From positions 2,591,501-2,655,500 of the forward strand of contig NZ_AP019791.1 in NCBI RefSeq assembly GCF_007164525.1: a stretch of DNA of 64,000 nucleotides. The letters run 5' to 3'. The notes under the pieces were generated by a model. That model was given only the letters and a program-made list of their open reading frames with translations, searched no databases and was not told the origin of the DNA. Positions within the stretch are counted from its first letter, which is position 1. Each line of letters opens with the position of its first letter. The DNA is from Rubrobacter xylanophilus. Lineage in GTDB: Bacteria > Actinomycetota > Rubrobacteria > Rubrobacterales > Rubrobacteraceae. Shown piece after piece: positions 52,242-59,567 of this stretch. A program made the position numbers and the translations under genes.

Positions 52242-52307
52242 ATTAACCGGGATTTAAGACCGCTTTCGTCCTCCTTTAACCCGCGTCGGCAGGAAGCCCC
52301 TTAGAAT
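52242..52307 (+). promoter_or_regulatory. PHO-box-like promoter 1: four 11-bp direct repeats plus -10
   Basis: Four head-to-tail 11-bp units occupy 52242-52285 exactly. They begin ATTAACC, TTTAAGA, TTTCGTC and TTTAACC, and the last unit is TTTAACCCGCG. Sixteen bp later comes the -10 box TAGAAT (52302-52307), so the last repeat covers the -35 position. This is the layout of promoters activated by PhoB/PhoP-type response regulators, which bind 11-bp tandem repeats. It drives the RTX-like gene at 52343. Confidence 0.75.
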
Positions 52308-52342: not shown

Positions 52343-52792
52343 TTGACCCTCAGACAGAAGTCCGCTCCACCGCTCGCCGGGCTCCCGCGCGCCGAACCCG
52401 CCGCTTCCCGGCTGCCCGGGTTCCTGCTCGCGGCGTTCGGGGTGCTGCTCATCGTCCTCTCCGTGCCGGACCTCGCCTCCGGCGCCGTGCTCGGGGGGCG
52501 GGAGGACGAGACGCTGCGGGGCGGTGCCCGGGACGACGCCCTCGTCGCGCTCGCCGGGCACGACGCGTTGTGGGGGCTGGGGGGCCGGGATCTGCTGGCC
52601 GGCGGCCCGGGGGACGACGAGCTCTACGGCGGCGCCGGGGCCGACGTGCTGCTCGGCGGGGAGGGCTCCGACTTCATCGAGGGAGCCGACGGCGAGCCGG
52701 ACCGCATCCTCTGCGGTCCCGGAGAGGACGTGGTCAACGCCGACCCTCAGGACCGCGTGGCCCCCGACTGCGAGACCGTCTACCGGGACTGA
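52343..52792 (+). CDS. Small secreted or anchored RTX-like calcium-binding repeat protein
   Basis: 149 residues from TTG 52343 (GGGAG 8 nt upstream). A single hydrophobic segment LPGFLLAAFGVLLIVLSVPDLASGA (~24-48) is a signal peptide or anchor. Residues ~50-112 contain about six nonapeptide-like units of the GGxGxDxLxG type: GGREDETLRGG, GHDALWGLGG, RDLLAGGPGDDELYGG, AGADVLLGGEGSDFIEG. These form the calcium-binding parallel beta-roll of RTX proteins. Two cysteines flank GPGEDVVNADPQDRVAPDC at the end. Function is unknown. The PHO-box-like promoter suggests expression in phosphate shortage. Confidence 0.75.
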   Translation: MTLRQKSAPPLAGLPRAEPAASRLPGFLLAAFGVLLIVLSVPDLASGAVLGGREDETLRGGARDDALVALAGHDALWGLGGRDLLAGGPGDDELYGGAGADVLLGGEGSDFIEGADGEPDRILCGPGEDVVNADPQDRVAPDCETVYRD

Positions 52793-52796
52793 TCCT

Positions 52797-52862
52797 TTTA
52801 AAGGACTTTTATCCTCGTTTTGAGCCTCCTTTAACCCGCGGCGGGGCACCGGCGGCTATCTT
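52797..52862 (+). promoter_or_regulatory. PHO-box-like promoter 2: four 11-bp direct repeats plus -10
   Basis: Four exact 11-bp units fill 52797-52840. They begin TTTAAAG, TTTATCC, TTTGAGC and TTTAACC, and the last is TTTAACCCGCG, identical to that of promoter 1. After 16 bp the -10 box TATCTT is at 52857-52862. The geometry equals promoter 1 to the base. It lies 5 bp after the RTX-like gene and drives the PHP-glycosyltransferase gene. Confidence 0.78.
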
Positions 52863-52910
52863 TGCCACGGCGGGCAGAGATTTCGCGTTTCTTCCGGGGA
52901 GGATGGACCT

Positions 52911-55175
52911 GTGGCGGACGCGGTAACCAGAATAGACCTGCACCTGCACTCGCGGGCCTCCGGGACGGCGACGAACTGGTGGGTGAAGGGGTTGGGCTCC
53001 GGGGTGGAGGCCCGGGAGTCCTACACCGACCCCGAGGACGCCTACCGGATGGCTCGGGAGGCGGGTATGGACTTCGTCACCCTGACCGACCACGAGACGA
53101 TAGAGGGCGCGCTCGGACTGAGCGGCAGGCACGCGGATTTCATAATCGGCGAGGAGGTCTGCGCGGCGTTCCCCGAGGACGGAAGCCTGGTGGACGTTCT
53201 CGTCTACGGTTTGGACGAGGAGGACCACCGGGAGATCCAGGCCAGGCGCGGCGACGTCTACCGGCTGGTCTCCTACCTCCGGGAGGCCGGGCTCGTGTAC
53301 GTCCTGGCCCATCCCGCCTACGGGCTCCCGGAAGCCTCGACGCGCGCCGCGGTGGAGCGCCGCCTGCTGCTCTTTGGCCTCTGGGAGTTCGTGAACGGCT
53401 CCCGCCCGGCCGAACAGAACCGTCTGGCCCGGGAGTTGGCCGAGGGAGTGGGGCCGCTGGAGCTGCGGCAGATGGCCGGCCGGTGCGGTCTGCCGGTCCC
53501 TCCGCATCGCCGGGTGCGGGGCACCGGAGGCTCGGACGACCACGGCGGGTTGTACGGGGGGAAGACCTTCACGCTGCTGCCCCGGGTCTCGGGTCCCGAG
53601 GAGTTGCTCGAGGCGCTGGCAGCCGGGGAGTGCGAGCCGGGGGGAGCCGACGGCTCCCCGGACAGACTCGCCCACACCGCCCTGAGGATCGCCGGGGGCG
53701 CCCTGAAGGAGGGAGAGAGCTGGCACGCCGCCCGGTTGCTGCAGCGTCTCTCTCCGACCGGCAGGCTGCACCCCGCGAGGGGTGCCGGCGGGGGGCTGCG
53801 CGAGCGGCTCCCGCTGCTGAGCCGGCTGCCGGAGGCGGGGATGAAGGGGGAACTGGTCCGGCGCTACGAGGACCGGGTCGCCGGGGCGCTGGAGGGCGTG
53901 GGTTCCGGGTTCCCGGCGCTGGACCTTCTCGGGGCGCTCGGCGGCATTCTGGAGGGGCACGGCTACATAGCGCCCTACGTCGCCCTCCACGGGTATTTCG
54001 GTCGCGAGACGGAGAGGGCGCTTCGCCTGCGGCGCGAGCTGCTTCCCGCCCGGTGCGGGGCGGTGAAGGTCGGCGTCTTCGTGGACGGGCTGGACGGGAT
54101 CCACGGGGTGGCGACGATGTACCGGAACATCGAGTCCCTCGCCGGGGGAGGTGAGCTGAGGGTCGTGCGGTGCAGGGAGGAGCTGGGGATCGTGGCCCGG
54201 GTTCCCGTCCCGTTCTACGGGGGGTTGGAGCTGGAGGTGCCCTCCCTGGTCTCCGTGCTGGAGCATGTGACCGGAGAGGGTTACGACACCCTGCACGTCG
54301 CGACCCCCGGACCGCTCGGCCTGGCAGCGCTGGTGGCGGGTCTGGTGCTGCGCATACCGGTCGTCGGGGCCTACCACACCGAGTTCGGGACCTACGCGCG
54401 GGTCCTCTCCGGGGATCATTTCGTGGCCGACATGGTCGAGGTCACCGTCCGGGAGTTCTACGAGCGCTGCGCAGCCGTCGTCGTACCCTCGCGTGCCACC
54501 TCCCTGTCTCTGCGGGCCCGGGGTTACAGGATCCGGCGCTTCGAGCTTTTGCGGAACGGGGTGGACGGCGACCTCTTCAGCCCGGAGCGCAGGGACGGCG
54601 GGCTGCGCCGGGCACTCGGGGGCGGCAGGAAGCTTTTGCTGTACGTCGGGAGACTAAGCAGGGAGAAGGGGCTCGAGGGGATGGCCGCCGGGTATCTCCG
54701 GCTGCGCCGCCGGCGCGGCGACGTCCATCTGGTGCTCGCCGGGGAGGGGCCGCTCAGAGGAGACCTGGAGGAGAAACTCGGGGAGACCGCCACCTTCACC
54801 GGCCTCGTGGAGGGGGAGGAGCTGGCCCGGATCTTCGCCTCCTGCGACGTCTTCGTTTTCCCCAGCCTGACCGACACCTTGGGACGCGCGGTGTTGGAGG
54901 CGCAGGCTTCGGGGGTTCCGGCGGTGGTCTACGGAAGCGGGGGACCGTCGGAGTGCATCCTCCCGGGCGAGAGCGGCTTCGTCGCGGACCCGGGGGACGA
55001 GGAGGGGTTCTTCTCGCTGGTGGAGGTGTTGCTCGACGACGAGGCCCGGAGAAGGCGCATGGGGCGGGCGGCCAGGCGTTTTGCGGGGTCCATGGGGTGG
55101 GAGGCGGTCGCCGGGCGGCTCCTGGCGCTGCACGCTGAACTCGCCCGTAGAGAGCGGTCGGTCGCCCCGGCATGA
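52911..55175 (+). CDS. PHP-domain/GT4 glycosyltransferase fusion protein
   Basis: 754 residues from GTG 52911 (GGGGAGG 8 nt upstream). The N-terminal PHP phosphoesterase domain has its metal ligands in RIDLHLHSRASG (His11, His13), TLTDHETIEG (His61), LAHPAYG (His133) and GSDDHGG (Asp208-His210). A ~130-residue linker includes helices. From ~385 a GT4 (GT-B) transferase follows: VGVFVDGLDGIHGVATMYRNI, VVGAYHTEFGTYAR, EFYERCAAVVVPSRATSLSLRARG, ELLRNGVDGDLFSPERRD, LYVGRLSREKGLEG and the E-x7-E region FPSLTDTLGRAVLEAQASG. The GT half resembles MgtA/SqdX-type enzymes making phosphate-free glycolipids. With the PHO-box promoter, lipid remodelling during phosphate starvation is a reasonable inference. 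Its ATGA overlap ties it to the next, broken gene. Confidence 0.85.
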   Translation: MADAVTRIDLHLHSRASGTATNWWVKGLGSGVEARESYTDPEDAYRMAREAGMDFVTLTDHETIEGALGLSGRHADFIIGEEVCAAFPEDGSLVDVLVYGLDEEDHREIQARRGDVYRLVSYLREAGLVYVLAHPAYGLPEASTRAAVERRLLLFGLWEFVNGSRPAEQNRLARELAEGVGPLELRQMAGRCGLPVPPHRRVRGTGGSDDHGGLYGGKTFTLLPRVSGPEELLEALAAGECEPGGADGSPDRLAHTALRIAGGALKEGESWHAARLLQRLSPTGRLHPARGAGGGLRERLPLLSRLPEAGMKGELVRRYEDRVAGALEGVGSGFPALDLLGALGGILEGHGYIAPYVALHGYFGRETERALRLRRELLPARCGAVKVGVFVDGLDGIHGVATMYRNIESLAGGGELRVVRCREELGIVARVPVPFYGGLELEVPSLVSVLEHVTGEGYDTLHVATPGPLGLAALVAGLVLRIPVVGAYHTEFGTYARVLSGDHFVADMVEVTVREFYERCAAVVVPSRATSLSLRARGYRIRRFELLRNGVDGDLFSPERRDGGLRRALGGGRKLLLYVGRLSREKGLEGMAAGYLRLRRRRGDVHLVLAGEGPLRGDLEEKLGETATFTGLVEGEELARIFASCDVFVFPSLTDTLGRAVLEAQASGVPAVVYGSGGPSECILPGESGFVADPGDEEGFFSLVEVLLDDEARRRRMGRAARRFAGSMGWEAVAGRLLALHAELARRERSVAPA

Positions 55176-56386
55176 GCCCGGAAGCCCGGGGATTACGGGT
55201 TCTGAAGGTCTGCCCGGCCTTCCCCGCCGGCGAGGAGGAGGGGAGGGACCCCTGGTTGCTGGAGCTCGTGCGGCGTTTGCGGGAGGCCAGGCTGGAGCTG
55301 GAGGTGCTAGCCCCCCTCCCGGGAGGGCCGCGGAGGGCGGGAGGAGGTGTGCGGCGTGCCGGTGCACCGCCACCGTTACGCCCCGCGCCAGGCGGAGATC
55401 CTGCACCGGAGGGTGTCCGGGAAGAGGGTCCTCGACGGCCTGTGGCGACTCGCGTTTCCGGGAGTTGGCCTCGTTGCAGCCGGAGCCTTCGCCGCGGGCA
55501 GGCTGGCCCGCCGGAGGGGATACGCCGTGATCCACGCCCACTGGCCGCTGCCCGCCGGCCTCGTCGCGCTGACGGGCGCGGGCCGCGCCGGAAAGGCCGC
55601 GTCTGGTCGCCACCTTTCACGGGGCGGAGCTCGCCGCCTGCGGAGGCAACCGGCCGCTGCAGGGTCTTTTGGCGACCGTCTGCGCCGGGCTCGACGCGGC
55701 GGTGGCGAACTCCAATGACGAGGATGGCGCCGGTCGTCATCCCCTTCGGTCCCTCGAGGCTGGCGGTGGAGGGCCGGGGGACGTCCCGCGGGCGCTCTGC
55801 TGTGGTGCTTGCGGTGGGCCGTTTGGTGGAACGCAAGGGGTTTGCCGGGCTCGTCAAGGCCTCCGGCCGGTTGCGTGGGCGGGCCCGGGTGGTGATAGTC
55901 GGGGAGGGGGAGGCCCGTGAGGAGCTTCTGCGGAAGGTTAGGGCCGGGGGAGTCGGGGACGTGGTGAGGATCGCCGGCCGCGTGAGCGGTTCCGAACTGG
56001 CCCGGCTCTACCGGGAGAGTTCGGTCTTCTGCCTGCCCGCCGTGGTCGACCGGCGGGGATGCACCGGGGGGCTCTGGGTGGCGATCACCGAGGCCATGTT
56101 CCACGGTCTCCCGGTCGTCGCCGGTCGTGTCGGGGGGATACCCGACGCCGTCGTGCACGGCGAAACCGGGCTGCTCGTTGAGCCCGGCGACCATGAAGCC
56201 CTCGCCTGCGCCCTGCTGATGCTGCTCGCCGACCCCGGGCTCGCGCGCGAGATGGGAGCGGCGGGCCGGCGGCGGGCCGAACGGCTGTTCTCCTGGGAGC
56301 GGGTCGTGGCGGATCATCTCGGACTGTACGAGAGGGTCGTCACGGGGAGAGGCGCTGGATCTCCGGCCTCCCCGCAGGGACCCTGA
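55172..56386 (+). pseudogene. GT4 glycosyltransferase broken by three frameshifts
   Basis: An open frame of 404 codons exists, but its centre is nonsense. The true sequence changes frame three times. Frame A (from ATG 55172) gives GLRVLKVCPAFPAGEEEG and LELEVLAPLPGGP. Near 55325-55345 it moves to frame B: REEVCGVPVHRHRYAPRQ and VIHAHWPLPAGLVAL. Near 55590-55605 it moves to frame C: RLVATFHGAELAACGG and GLLATVCAGLDAAVANS. Near 55710-55740 it returns to frame A: APVVIPFGPSRLAVEG, VVLAVGRLVERKGFAGLV, EAMFHGLPVVAGRVGGIPDAVV. Each piece matches the normal GT4 order. Three same-direction shifts restore the frame, so the ORF stays open in GC-rich DNA. The middle third is destroyed and activity is unlikely. 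Sequencing error is less likely with three events. Confidence 0.8.
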
Positions 56387-58126
56387 AGCGCGCCAGCGTG
56401 TCTGCCCGCGGGTTTTCCTGGGGCTCCCGAATAGTCCGCACGTACTTCATGGTACAGACCAGCTCCCGCTCCGTGAGCTCCATAACGTTGTAGCCGTGCG
56501 TCGAGGAGTCGAAGAACTCGTAGTGGGGGTTGCTTATCCGCAGGGCGTCCTCCAGCCTTGCCGGGCTCCTCACTGCGGGGCCGGAGGGCGACTGTCCGAG
56601 GCGGGCTATCTCGTAGAGGTTGGAGGAGGTCACGGAGCCCCCGACGAAACAGACCCCGACGGCGTTCGGCGGTTCGTTCGAGGGGTCGTCGTAGTCCTCC
56701 TTGGCGTACCCGGCGGCGAAGGAGTGGATGTCGCCGGTTATGATCACGAAGTTCTCCACCCCGGCGCGGCGTATGCTGCGGGCTATCTCCGAACGCTCCG
56801 CTCCGTAGCCGTCCCACTGGTCCAGGGTCAGTAGACGCCTCCCGGCGGGACCGGAGGGACGCCCGGCAGGATGCCTCTCTCGGCCCCCAGGAAGGTGTTG
56901 AGGATCTTCGTCTGCATGAACTGCACCTCGTTGCCCCATATCTTCCAGGTGCTCCGGGAGCCGGTGATCTTCTGCAGGAGGAACTCCTTCTGTAGCGGGC
57001 CGAGCATGGTGCGGCCCGGGGCGCTCTCCCTCCCGCATCCCGGGGTCACGTAGCGGTTGCGGGTCTCGAGGCCGCACGGCGGACCGTCCCTGTAGAGCCG
57101 CTCGTCGGTCATGACGAGGGTGGCCAGCCTTCCGAAGTCGAAGGACCGGTAGACCACGATCTGCTCGAGCGGACCCTTCGCCGGGTCGAAGTACACCCCC
57201 ACGGGGTTGAACTCCACCCATGCCCGGCTGGCCGCGGCCCGGCGCTCCGGGTCTCTCATCCTTCCGGAGGCGTCGGGCGCGAAGACCTCAAAGGAGTCGT
57301 TGGCGAACTCGTGGTCGTCCCAGGTCATGATGAAGGCGAAGTTCTCGTGCACCCGTTGCAGGTTGCGGTCTGTCTTGTACTTCTTGTACAGGAATCTGTA
57401 GTCCTCCAGGGTGTCGGCCTCTCCCGGCCTCCTGGATCCCAGCGCGGAAGGGGGAATCCGGCGTTCCGGAGGCCCGCCGCCCTGGAAGCTCTCCTCGGCC
57501 ACGGTCTCGTAGATGTAGTCGCCAAGGTGCACGACGAAGTCCACCCGCTCCCGGGCCAGGGCTCCCAGGGCGTTGTAGTAGCCGTTTGTGTAGTCCTGGC
57601 ACGAGACGTAAGCGAACCTCAGGCGTCCGGGAGAGTCCGCCGCGGCCGGAAGGGTCTTGAACCTTCCCGTCCTGCTCGCCGCCCCGCCGTAGTAGAAGCG
57701 GTAGCGGTAACTCCGGAAGGGCTCCAGCTCCGGCCTTCTGAGCTGGACCTTGACGGTGTAGTCCCTGTCCGGCCCCGTCCGGGCGACGCCGCTCAGCAGG
57801 GGTTTTCTGAACGCCGCGGCGTCGCTCCGATCGTCGTCGGGGGCAACCCGGTACCCTACCCGTACCTCACCCCTCCGGCGGGGAGGCCGGACGCGGGTCC
57901 AGAGCACGATGCCGTCCGGCCGGGGATCTCCGGAGGCCACGCTCTGCGGGAAGAGTTCCGGTGCTACGGTGGAGGTTCGGAACAGCTCCCGGGCCTCGGC
58001 CGTGCCGGCTCCGGCCCAGATCACCACGCCGGTGGCGAGCGAGTACTTGAGGAAGCCGAGCCGGCTTATGCAGACTTCGTCCAGGCGATCCAAGTCCCGA
58101 GAACCCCCTCTTTCTCTGTGTTCCAC
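56340..58126 (-). pseudogene. phoD: PhoD-family phosphatase interrupted by a frameshift
   Basis: The first frame runs from GTG 58126 to a stop at 56828 and carries the phosphatase core: VASGDPRPDGIVLWTRV, RFAYVSCQDYTNGYYNALGAL, VDFVVHLGDYIYE, MTWDDHEFANDS. It ends PPGGVY. The adjacent frame continues without a gap as LTLDQWDGYGAERSEIARSI, then NFVIITGDIHSFAAGY and GVCFVGGSVTSS, down to a stop at 56340. One missing base at about 56830, within TAC-TGA, splits the gene; adding one C restores a normal ~595-residue PhoD. The second piece holds the metal ligands of GDIHS, so the first piece alone cannot work. Possible reasons are true decay, programmed frameshifting or sequence error. The N-terminus has SRLGFLKYSLATGVVIWAGAG, a Tat-like signal with only one arginine. 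Confidence 0.8.
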
Positions 58127-58137
58127 CGGACGGAGGA

Positions 58138-58170
58138 AGTGTAGCGTCCCCCAACACCCGGCGGGTTAAA
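58138..58170 (-). promoter_or_regulatory. PHO-box-like promoter 3, upstream of phoD
   Basis: On the minus strand TTTAACCCGCC (58160-58170) is followed after exactly 16 bp by the -10 box TACACT (58138-58143), the same spacing as promoters 1 and 2. Upstream units are degenerate: the preceding 11-mer is GTTTTTTCGCG, and TTTAACACAGA is 24 bp away. Transcription would begin within a few bases of the GTG at 58126, so the message is almost leaderless. Confidence 0.65.
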
Positions 58171-58174
58171 CGCG

Positions 58175-58199
58175 AAAAAACTCTCTGTGTTAAAGAGAG
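58175..58199 (-). terminator. Rho-independent terminator after trpB2
   Basis: On the minus strand CTCTCT (58194-58199) and AGAGAG (58181-58186) form a 6-bp stem with a 7-base loop, followed directly by TTTTTT (58175-58180). It is 16 bp after the trpB2 stop. Its loop contains TTAAC and it abuts phosphate-type promoter 3. Confidence 0.75.
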
Positions 58200-58214
58200 G
58201 GCGCCTCTTTTCCT

Positions 58215-59567
58215 CTACGCGGGAAGCTCCTGCAGAGCCCGGTCTATCTCCTCCTGCGAAAGCTCGAGGTCCGGGAGCGCCCCGGCCAGGTAGCGCTCGT
58301 AGGCGGAGAGGTCGAAGTGCCCGTGGCCGCACATGTTGAAGAGGATCACGCGCTCCTCCCCGGCCTCCCTGGCCTCGAGCGCCAGGTCCATCGCCGCCTT
58401 TATGGCGTGGTTGACCTCCGGCGCGGGGACTATGCCCTCGGCCCGCGCGAACGCCACCCCGGCCTCGAAGGTCTCGTTCTGCAGGTAGGCGCGCGCCTCC
58501 ACGAGCCCCTCGTGCACGAGCGCGGACAGGATCGGCGAGTCCCCATGGTAGCGGAGCCCCCCGGCGTGTATCCCGGCCGGCACGAAGGAGTGGCCTAAAG
58601 TGTACATCTTCATCAGGGGGGTCGTCCCGGCGGTGTCGCCGAAGTCGTAGGTGAAGCGGCCCTTGGTGAGCGTCGGGCAGGAGGCGGGCTCCACCGCGAT
58701 AAAGCGGGTGTCCCTCCCGTTCACCAGGTTCTCGCGCAGGAAGGGGAAGGCGATCCCGCCGAAGTTCGAGCCGCCGCCCGCGCAGCCGACGACCACGTCC
58801 GGGTACTCGCCGGCGAGCTCCATCTGCTCTATGGCTTCCTGCCCGATCACGGTCTGGTGCAGGAGCACGTGGTTGAGGACGCTCCCCAAGGAATACTTCG
58901 CTTCCTCGCTCCCGACCGCGTCCTCGACGGCCTCCGAGATGGCGATGCCTAAAGAGCCGGGGGAGTCGGGGTGCTCCTCGAGGATCTTGCGTCCCGCCTG
59001 GGTGATATCCGTGGGGCTTGCGTGGACCTCGGCGCCGTAGGTCTGCATCATGATGCGGCGGTAGGGCTTCTGGTCGTAGGAGACGCGCACCATGTAGACG
59101 GTGCACTCCAGGCCCATCTGGCGGCAGGCGAAGGCCAAAGAAGAGCCCCACTGACCCGCGCCGGTCTCGGTGGTGAGGCGCCGGACGCCCTCCTCGCGGT
59201 TGTAGTAGGCCTGGGGGACGGCGGTGTTGGGCTTGTGGCTCCCGGTGGGGGAGACCCCCTCGTACTTGTAGTAGATGCGGGCGGGGGTATCCAGGAGCCT
59301 CTCCAGGCGCCGGGCGCGGAAGAGGGGCGTGGGGCGCCAGAGGGCGTAGATCCTTCGCACCTCCTCCGGGATGGGGACGCGCGACTCGGCCGTGACCTCC
59401 TGCTCGATGATCGCCCGGGGGAAGATCGGGGCGAAGGCCTCCGGCCCCACCGGCTCGCGGGTGGCCGGATCGAGCGGCGGCTCCAGCGCGAACGGCAGGT
59501 CCGGCACGATGTTGTACCAGCTCTGCGGGATGTGCTCGTCGCCGAGAACGAACTTCGTGGGCTCCAC
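58215..59567 (-). CDS. Tryptophan synthase beta chain type 2 (TrpB2)
   Basis: 450-residue PLP enzyme of the TrpB2 branch, which condenses indole and serine without tight TrpA binding. Typical N-terminus: [20 protein letters not shown] and [27 protein letters not shown]. The PLP lysine is in [19 protein letters not shown] near residue 112, then [20 protein letters not shown], the phosphate loop [19 protein letters not shown] and the late [23 protein letters not shown] 59567 is preceded by AGAGGTGG. No trpA or other trp gene adjoins, so indole salvage or a stand-alone role is possible. It ends in its own terminator. Confidence 0.95.

Follow-up and report, generated by a model that had tools for sequence, protein, structure and literature searches.

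We analysed a 64,000-nt window of Rubrobacter xylanophilus (NCBI RefSeq assembly GCF_007164525.1, contig NZ_AP019791.1, positions 2,591,501 to 2,655,500 of the forward strand), in which a gene for a PhoD phosphatase lies on the minus strand behind a repeat-containing promoter region (58131-58194). The first part of the phoD frame, at 56828..58126, covers PhoD_N and most of the PhoD domain (PF09423, 2.9e-59; PF16655, 9.8e-21), and past a break in the frame a further minus-strand ORF at 56340..57221 holds the rest of PhoD (PF09423 positions 228-339, 1.9e-20). As the preliminary description of this DNA had stated, the gene is preceded on the same strand by the 11-bp unit TTTAACCCGCC (58160..58170), a 16-bp spacer (58144..58159) and the -10 hexamer TACACT (58138..58143). 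The unit scores 9.4 bits and the spacer is unconserved in relatives; transcription is predicted to start 7 nt after the hexamer, at 58131 (+/-2, minus strand). The likely start codon of phoD is a TTG at 58091..58093 (minus strand) with AGAGGGGG upstream, and it is conserved in the relative L004 as a TTG behind AGAGGAGG. We consider this TTG at 58093 a likelier start than the GTG at 58126 that opens the long ORF; the GTG is doubtful, and its leader would be only some five bases long.

Two more units lie upstream of the proximal one on the minus strand. The middle unit, GTTTTTTCGCG (58171..58181), is weak but in register, and resembles the middle unit GTTTTCGGTCG of the relative L005. The distal unit, TTTAACACAGA (58184..58194), is perfect and strong (16.9 bits) but 2 bp out of register, located 24 bp rather than 22 bp from the strong proximal unit; read in the 11-bp register instead of at -24, the distal frame scores -3.6 bits. 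The statement that good conservation is confined to the promoter-proximal unit therefore had to be revised, since the distal unit, although out of register, outscores it. In L004, a Rubrobacter sp. MAG with an 83% identical PhoD and the nearest relative sharing the phoD gene order, the corresponding distal unit keeps the 22-bp distance and stays in register. The same region contains a probable intrinsic terminator of trpB (58175..58199, minus strand), with the stem CTCTCT/AGAGAG followed by T6; the fold of 58176-58203 has an energy of -6.2 kcal/mol, and a hairpin of the same kind in L004 has -6.5 kcal/mol. Both here and in L004 the distal unit overlaps the loop and the arms of this probable terminator, giving the stretch two roles.

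On the plus strand, the window contains two sister sites, each with four 11-bp units, a 16-bp spacer and a -10 hexamer. Site A (52242..52307; TAGAAT) lies ahead of a gene at 52343..52792 encoding a small protein of 149 aa that carries calcium-binding nonapeptide repeats of the RTX type (PF00353, 2.8e-14) and probably a signal segment or membrane anchor, and its units ATTAACCGGGA, TTTAAGACCGC, TTTCGTCCTCC and TTTAACCCGCG follow each other in 11-bp steps. Site B (52797..52862; TATCTT), with the units TTTAAAGGACT, TTTATCCTCGT, TTTGAGCCTCC and TTTAACCCGCG in the same steps, precedes a gene at 52911..55175 for a protein of 754 aa whose C-terminal half is a glycosyltransferase of the GT4 type (PF00534, 1.9e-30). 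The shared proximal unit TTTAACCCGCG is at 52275+ in site A and 52830+ in site B. Since sites A and B and the phoD copy all have 16 bp between proximal unit and -10 hexamer, the phoD element is indeed a third copy with the same spacing, as had been proposed. Site A is conserved in the sister genome G001, and site B in the ortholog L141; the 330 bp examined upstream of another site B ortholog, L140, contain no box; that gene may lie inside an operon. The N-terminal half of the site B glycosyltransferase resembles, by eye, a metal-binding domain of the PHP type (DLHLHS), with no Pfam PHP match. The protein is a candidate for the synthesis of a phosphate-free glycolipid or wall polymer under phosphate limitation.

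The promoter of pstS provided an anchor that is independent of the sites chosen in the preliminary description. We located pstS genes in 18 of the 39 family genomes, and the upstream regions of 16 relatives yielded 15 distinct sites, all with the layout of the box at the organism's own pstS (TTTAACACGGA TTTAGCGCTCA GTTTACATAAT TGAAACTACGG, 16 bp, TATCAT), a fixed geometry that is partly by construction because the sites were found by their best match to the G001 site (L150, where the match begins inside the gene, was left out). A matrix was trained on these 15 sites from relatives, with the own pstS held out, and applied to 127,870 window positions. In the position-specific model, site A ranked first (15.8 bits) and site B second (10.0 bits), the latter 20 bits clear of the third-best position (-10.7 bits). 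The most regular and strongest boxes are those at pstS.

The phoD copy is far weaker by sequence than sites A and B, pstS or the second phoD gene of the genome (phoD2), and also weaker than the phoD boxes of relatives. Its proximal unit, 16-bp spacing and -10 hexamer together rank 4th among 127,936 window positions, and with the full four-unit pstS matrix it ranks 66th (position-specific) or 70th (pooled) of 127,870, a low rank that results from the out-of-register distal unit at 24 bp. Of 6000 background chunks, 18 attain its three-unit score of 0.5; the chunks were taken from window positions 1-50000, a pool free of known Pho promoters, and being G+C-rich and mostly coding they may make such fractions look somewhat too favourable. 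The TTTAACCCGCC 11-mer alone, with up to two mismatches, matches the window 12 times against 8.56 expected, and 14 of 100 shuffles reach 12; for lack of enrichment, it was not used as evidence. When combined with the geometry, the pattern becomes rare: for TTTAACCCGC[CG] followed by 15-17 bp and TANNNT, the whole 3.02-Mb genome has exactly three matches, each of them in the window, and the reversed control gives 0. With TTTAAC, a gap of 10-32 bp and TANNNT, the whole genome gives 24 matches, among which the gap equal to the 16-bp spacer is the commonest (4 of 24), a modest excess (Poisson about 0.014 for a preset gap). Across 99 genomes, the exact TTTAACCCGC[CG] string is present in three, namely the own genome, G001 and G020; what is conserved in the family is the core and the geometry, not the exact 11-mer. 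The gene downstream of the G020 copy was not recognised as a phosphate gene. An Rfam search over the window gave no match.

The check that had been suggested, a comparison of phoD upstream regions in relatives, found a box in 13 of 13 distinct Rubrobacteraceae regions, so the refuting outcome named with it, a motif not kept in relatives, did not occur. These 13 boxes derive from six named loci (six of the 80 named were scored) and 12 further Rubrobacteraceae loci; upstream of another named locus, L017, no box was seen on inspection. Twelve of the 13 outscore every one of the 6000 background chunks; the exception, L007/L101, is the weakest and is equalled by 18 of the 6000. When any spacer from 8 to 26 bp was allowed, 10 of the 13 orthologs had their best -10 hexamer at 16 bp and the others at 22, 9 and 17 bp, and TANNNT stands at the expected place in 12 of the 13 boxes, one base later in L103. 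The orthologous promoters have three in-register units and an unconserved spacer: mean relative entropy is 1.87 bits in the unit 1 and unit 3 cores and 1.57 bits in the -10 hexamer, against 0.28 bits in the spacer and 0.45 bits in the unit tails. Conserved cores and -10 hexamer next to variable spacer and tails are the pattern to be expected of a bound site, rather than of common descent alone. Another phoD family, more distant at 35-40% identity and represented by 17 loci, carries the box in 16 of 17 promoters, each at a level reached by under 0.5% of the background, and includes the own phoD2 (C1:2151108-2152238), a complete gene with a good box.

To follow the operator through the family, we used a pattern of two TTTAAC cores 22 bp apart, then 21 bp and TANNNT, with one mismatch, which gave 77 matches in 39 Rubrobacteraceae genomes, while the reversed control gave 2. 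We read the genes downstream of 29 of the 77 matches, plus L179; three of the 29 had no ORF. Genes were classified by Pfam or by identity with phoD, with L180, L191, L193, L194, L200, L202 and L203 standing outside the Pfam scan. Among the targets read, genes of phosphate acquisition are behind 10 of the 29 matches (PhoX four, PhoD three, and one each of GDPD-type, metallophosphoesterase and phosphonate-binding). The most frequent single class is that of the small RTX-repeat proteins, behind 7 of the 29 (L178, L181, L183, L185, L187, L189 and L197), of which five are above the Pfam cut-off, L185 is just below it and L178 was assigned by likeness only. The other targets are three ABC-transporter permeases (one scanned, two alike by eye), two DUF2079 proteins, one xylose-isomerase-like protein and six unclear cases. 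In the own genome, the pattern with three mismatches gave 14 matches against 5 in the control, including pstS, phoD2, sites A, B and C, and a xylose-isomerase-like gene at C1:1632611. The box of this last, TIM-barrel gene (L125; C1:1632611-1632665, plus strand) is very good, and G001 has a similar one at C1:2476908.

Across 149 sampled genomes of the phylum, an excess was seen in Rubrobacteraceae only, except for two genomes of one other family; a looser pattern run over 136 genomes outside the family gave 43 matches and 43 in the control, with no overall excess. G094 and G125, of family f18 of the phylum, show the same geometry in 11 matches against 0 in the control. Within Rubrobacteraceae, the relative G028 has 11 of the 77 family-wide matches, mostly with a variant proximal unit like TTTAACTCAGG; the regulon may have expanded there, or the matches may belong to a dispersed repeat. 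Within the window, no box was found in the 300 bp upstream of the longest ORFs of a 5'-nucleotidase, a GDPD and a third PhoD, and the idea that all window phosphatases form one PHO-box regulon was dropped.

A PHO box consists of two 11-nt direct repeat units, and the pst operon is the most conserved member of the Pho regulon, other common members being PhoD, GDPD-type and 5'-nucleotidase enzymes (PMC4415409). Against the at least two direct 11-nt units of such a box, sites A and B have four each; the motif is present at the own pstS and at pstS of 16 relatives; and at all three window sites it has a fixed placement beside the -10 hexamer, 16 bp away, replacing a -35 element. Because the repeat stands as the operator of the pst operon, it is the PHO box of the literature (PMC4415409), and the repeat family, previously called unknown, belongs to this described type. 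The link that had been drawn from the repeat to a phosphate gene and a regulon gains support from its conservation at phoD, phoD2 and pstS in relatives. Repeats with an 11-bp period and a fixed spacing are conserved before phoD, pstS, PhoX and similar genes throughout the family. We read the phoD element, with a probability of roughly 0.87, as a PHO-box promoter to which a regulator would bind, inducing phoD when phosphate is scarce. Points against this reading are the low rank of the copy by its own sequence, the shifted distal unit, the interrupted phoD frame, the lack of a close phoD match in the sister genome G001, the failure of the best OmpR-type regulators to reach the PhoB cut-off, and the missing boxes at the other phosphate genes of the window. 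The type is already known, and the box at phoD is one more example of it, not a novel kind of switch.

In the mechanism that we propose, phosphate starvation would lead to a phosphorylated OmpR/PhoB-family regulator equivalent to PhoP, which would bind the tandem 11-bp units (core TTTAAC) head to tail. The bound regulator would recruit a sigma-70-type RNA polymerase to the -10 hexamer 16 bp past the last unit, with no need of a normal -35 element, and this recruitment would turn phoD on when phosphate is scarce. At phoD, where the distal unit is displaced by two bases, we expect weaker cooperative binding than at pstS; partly degraded as it is, this copy probably belongs to the regulon as a weak or decaying member.

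Several other readings of the element have to be weighed against this one. That the element is an ordinary promoter with a repeat-like -35, or a chance match, is very improbable: the lack of enrichment of the 11-mer in the window and a three-unit score reached by 0.3% of background chunks speak for it, but the orthologous promoters all carry three in-register units around an unconserved spacer, and the family-wide count of 77 against 2 is hard to reconcile with it. We also regard it as unlikely, to a lesser degree, that the repeats serve some other regulator of the OmpR/PhoB type, such as an MtrA-, RegX3- or other nutrient-type protein, with phosphate genes as only part of its targets. Among the six best OmpR-type regulators of the genome, none reaches the PhoB equivalog cut-off and four score best as MtrA, and the DUF2079 membrane proteins, the xylose-isomerase-like protein and the glycosyltransferases are not classical phosphate genes, all of which would suit such a regulator; against it, the boxes reach their greatest strength and regularity at pstS, and the PhoX, PhoD, GDPD and phosphonate genes form the largest classifiable group of known function. 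The best candidate for the regulator, L167 (C1:1899890-1900558), also speaks for a PhoB-type protein, being alone among the six in having PhoB as its best NCBIfam model (221 bits against a cut-off of 296) and being followed by a histidine kinase. Upstream of the six regulators there is no convincing autoregulatory box.

A closer competitor, to which we give somewhat less than an even chance, is that an ancestral PHO box persists at phoD as a relic, and that useful induction or production of PhoD has ceased in this genome. In its favour, the distal unit is shifted by 2 bp to -24 and the frame is interrupted near 56830 (56828-56850, minus strand), whereas the L004 frame runs intact over 589 codons. 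A close match to the phoD of the window is also lacking in the sister genome G001, and the complete phoD2 with its good box is present elsewhere in the own genome. Yet the proximal unit and -10 hexamer are intact, and the substitutions relative to L004 by codon position (47/28/145 over the 395 codons before the break and 23/16/68 over the 161 codons after it) are dominated by third-position changes on both sides, so that either selection acted until recently and the break is young, or a sequencing error accounts for the break. Regarding the surroundings of the gene, G001 lacks a 5.4-kb stretch (window 52793-58220) that here holds site B, phoD and two glycosyltransferase genes; in G001 the site A gene is directly followed by trpB (L093:6706-6731).

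Returning to the PHO-box reading and extending it from phoD to the family, we lean slightly towards a Rubrobacteraceae Pho regulon with a family-specific operator, made of TTTAAC units and a rigid 16-bp spacing, whose commonest non-classical target is the small RTX calcium-repeat protein. If so, an uncharacterised calcium-binding surface protein would be at the core of the phosphate-starvation response of this lineage. Through the 55-bp pattern, a repeat that had no name can be read as an operator and used to list the phosphate-starvation genes of a deep and poorly studied actinobacterial lineage, and the list offers uncharacterised members that can be tested, namely the small RTX proteins, the DUF2079 proteins and the glycosyltransferase pair. 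In the literature searched, we came upon no study of Rubrobacter PHO boxes and, judged by title, none of Rubrobacter gene regulation.

Among known systems, the PhoP boxes of Bacillus subtilis are TTAACA-like repeats, and thus likewise have an A/T-rich TTAAC core in direct repeats. The PhoB boxes of Escherichia coli are alike in their tandem 11-nt units and in an activator that works with the sigma-70 polymerase, and unlike in their core sequence, the units being CTGTCAT (PMC4415409). The PHO boxes of Streptomyces coelicolor PhoP are composed of 11-nt direct units with GTTCACC as the most conserved motif (PMC4415409, PMC6283541, PMC7866108). They resemble the Rubrobacter boxes in the 11-nt direct repeats, in having several units of unequal strength and in pstS as a conserved target, and differ in the core, which is GTTCACC there and TTTAAC/TTTAACC in Rubrobacter. 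Set against the Streptomyces system, the Rubrobacter boxes are distinguished by a last unit that keeps its 16 bp to the -10 hexamer across genes and genomes.
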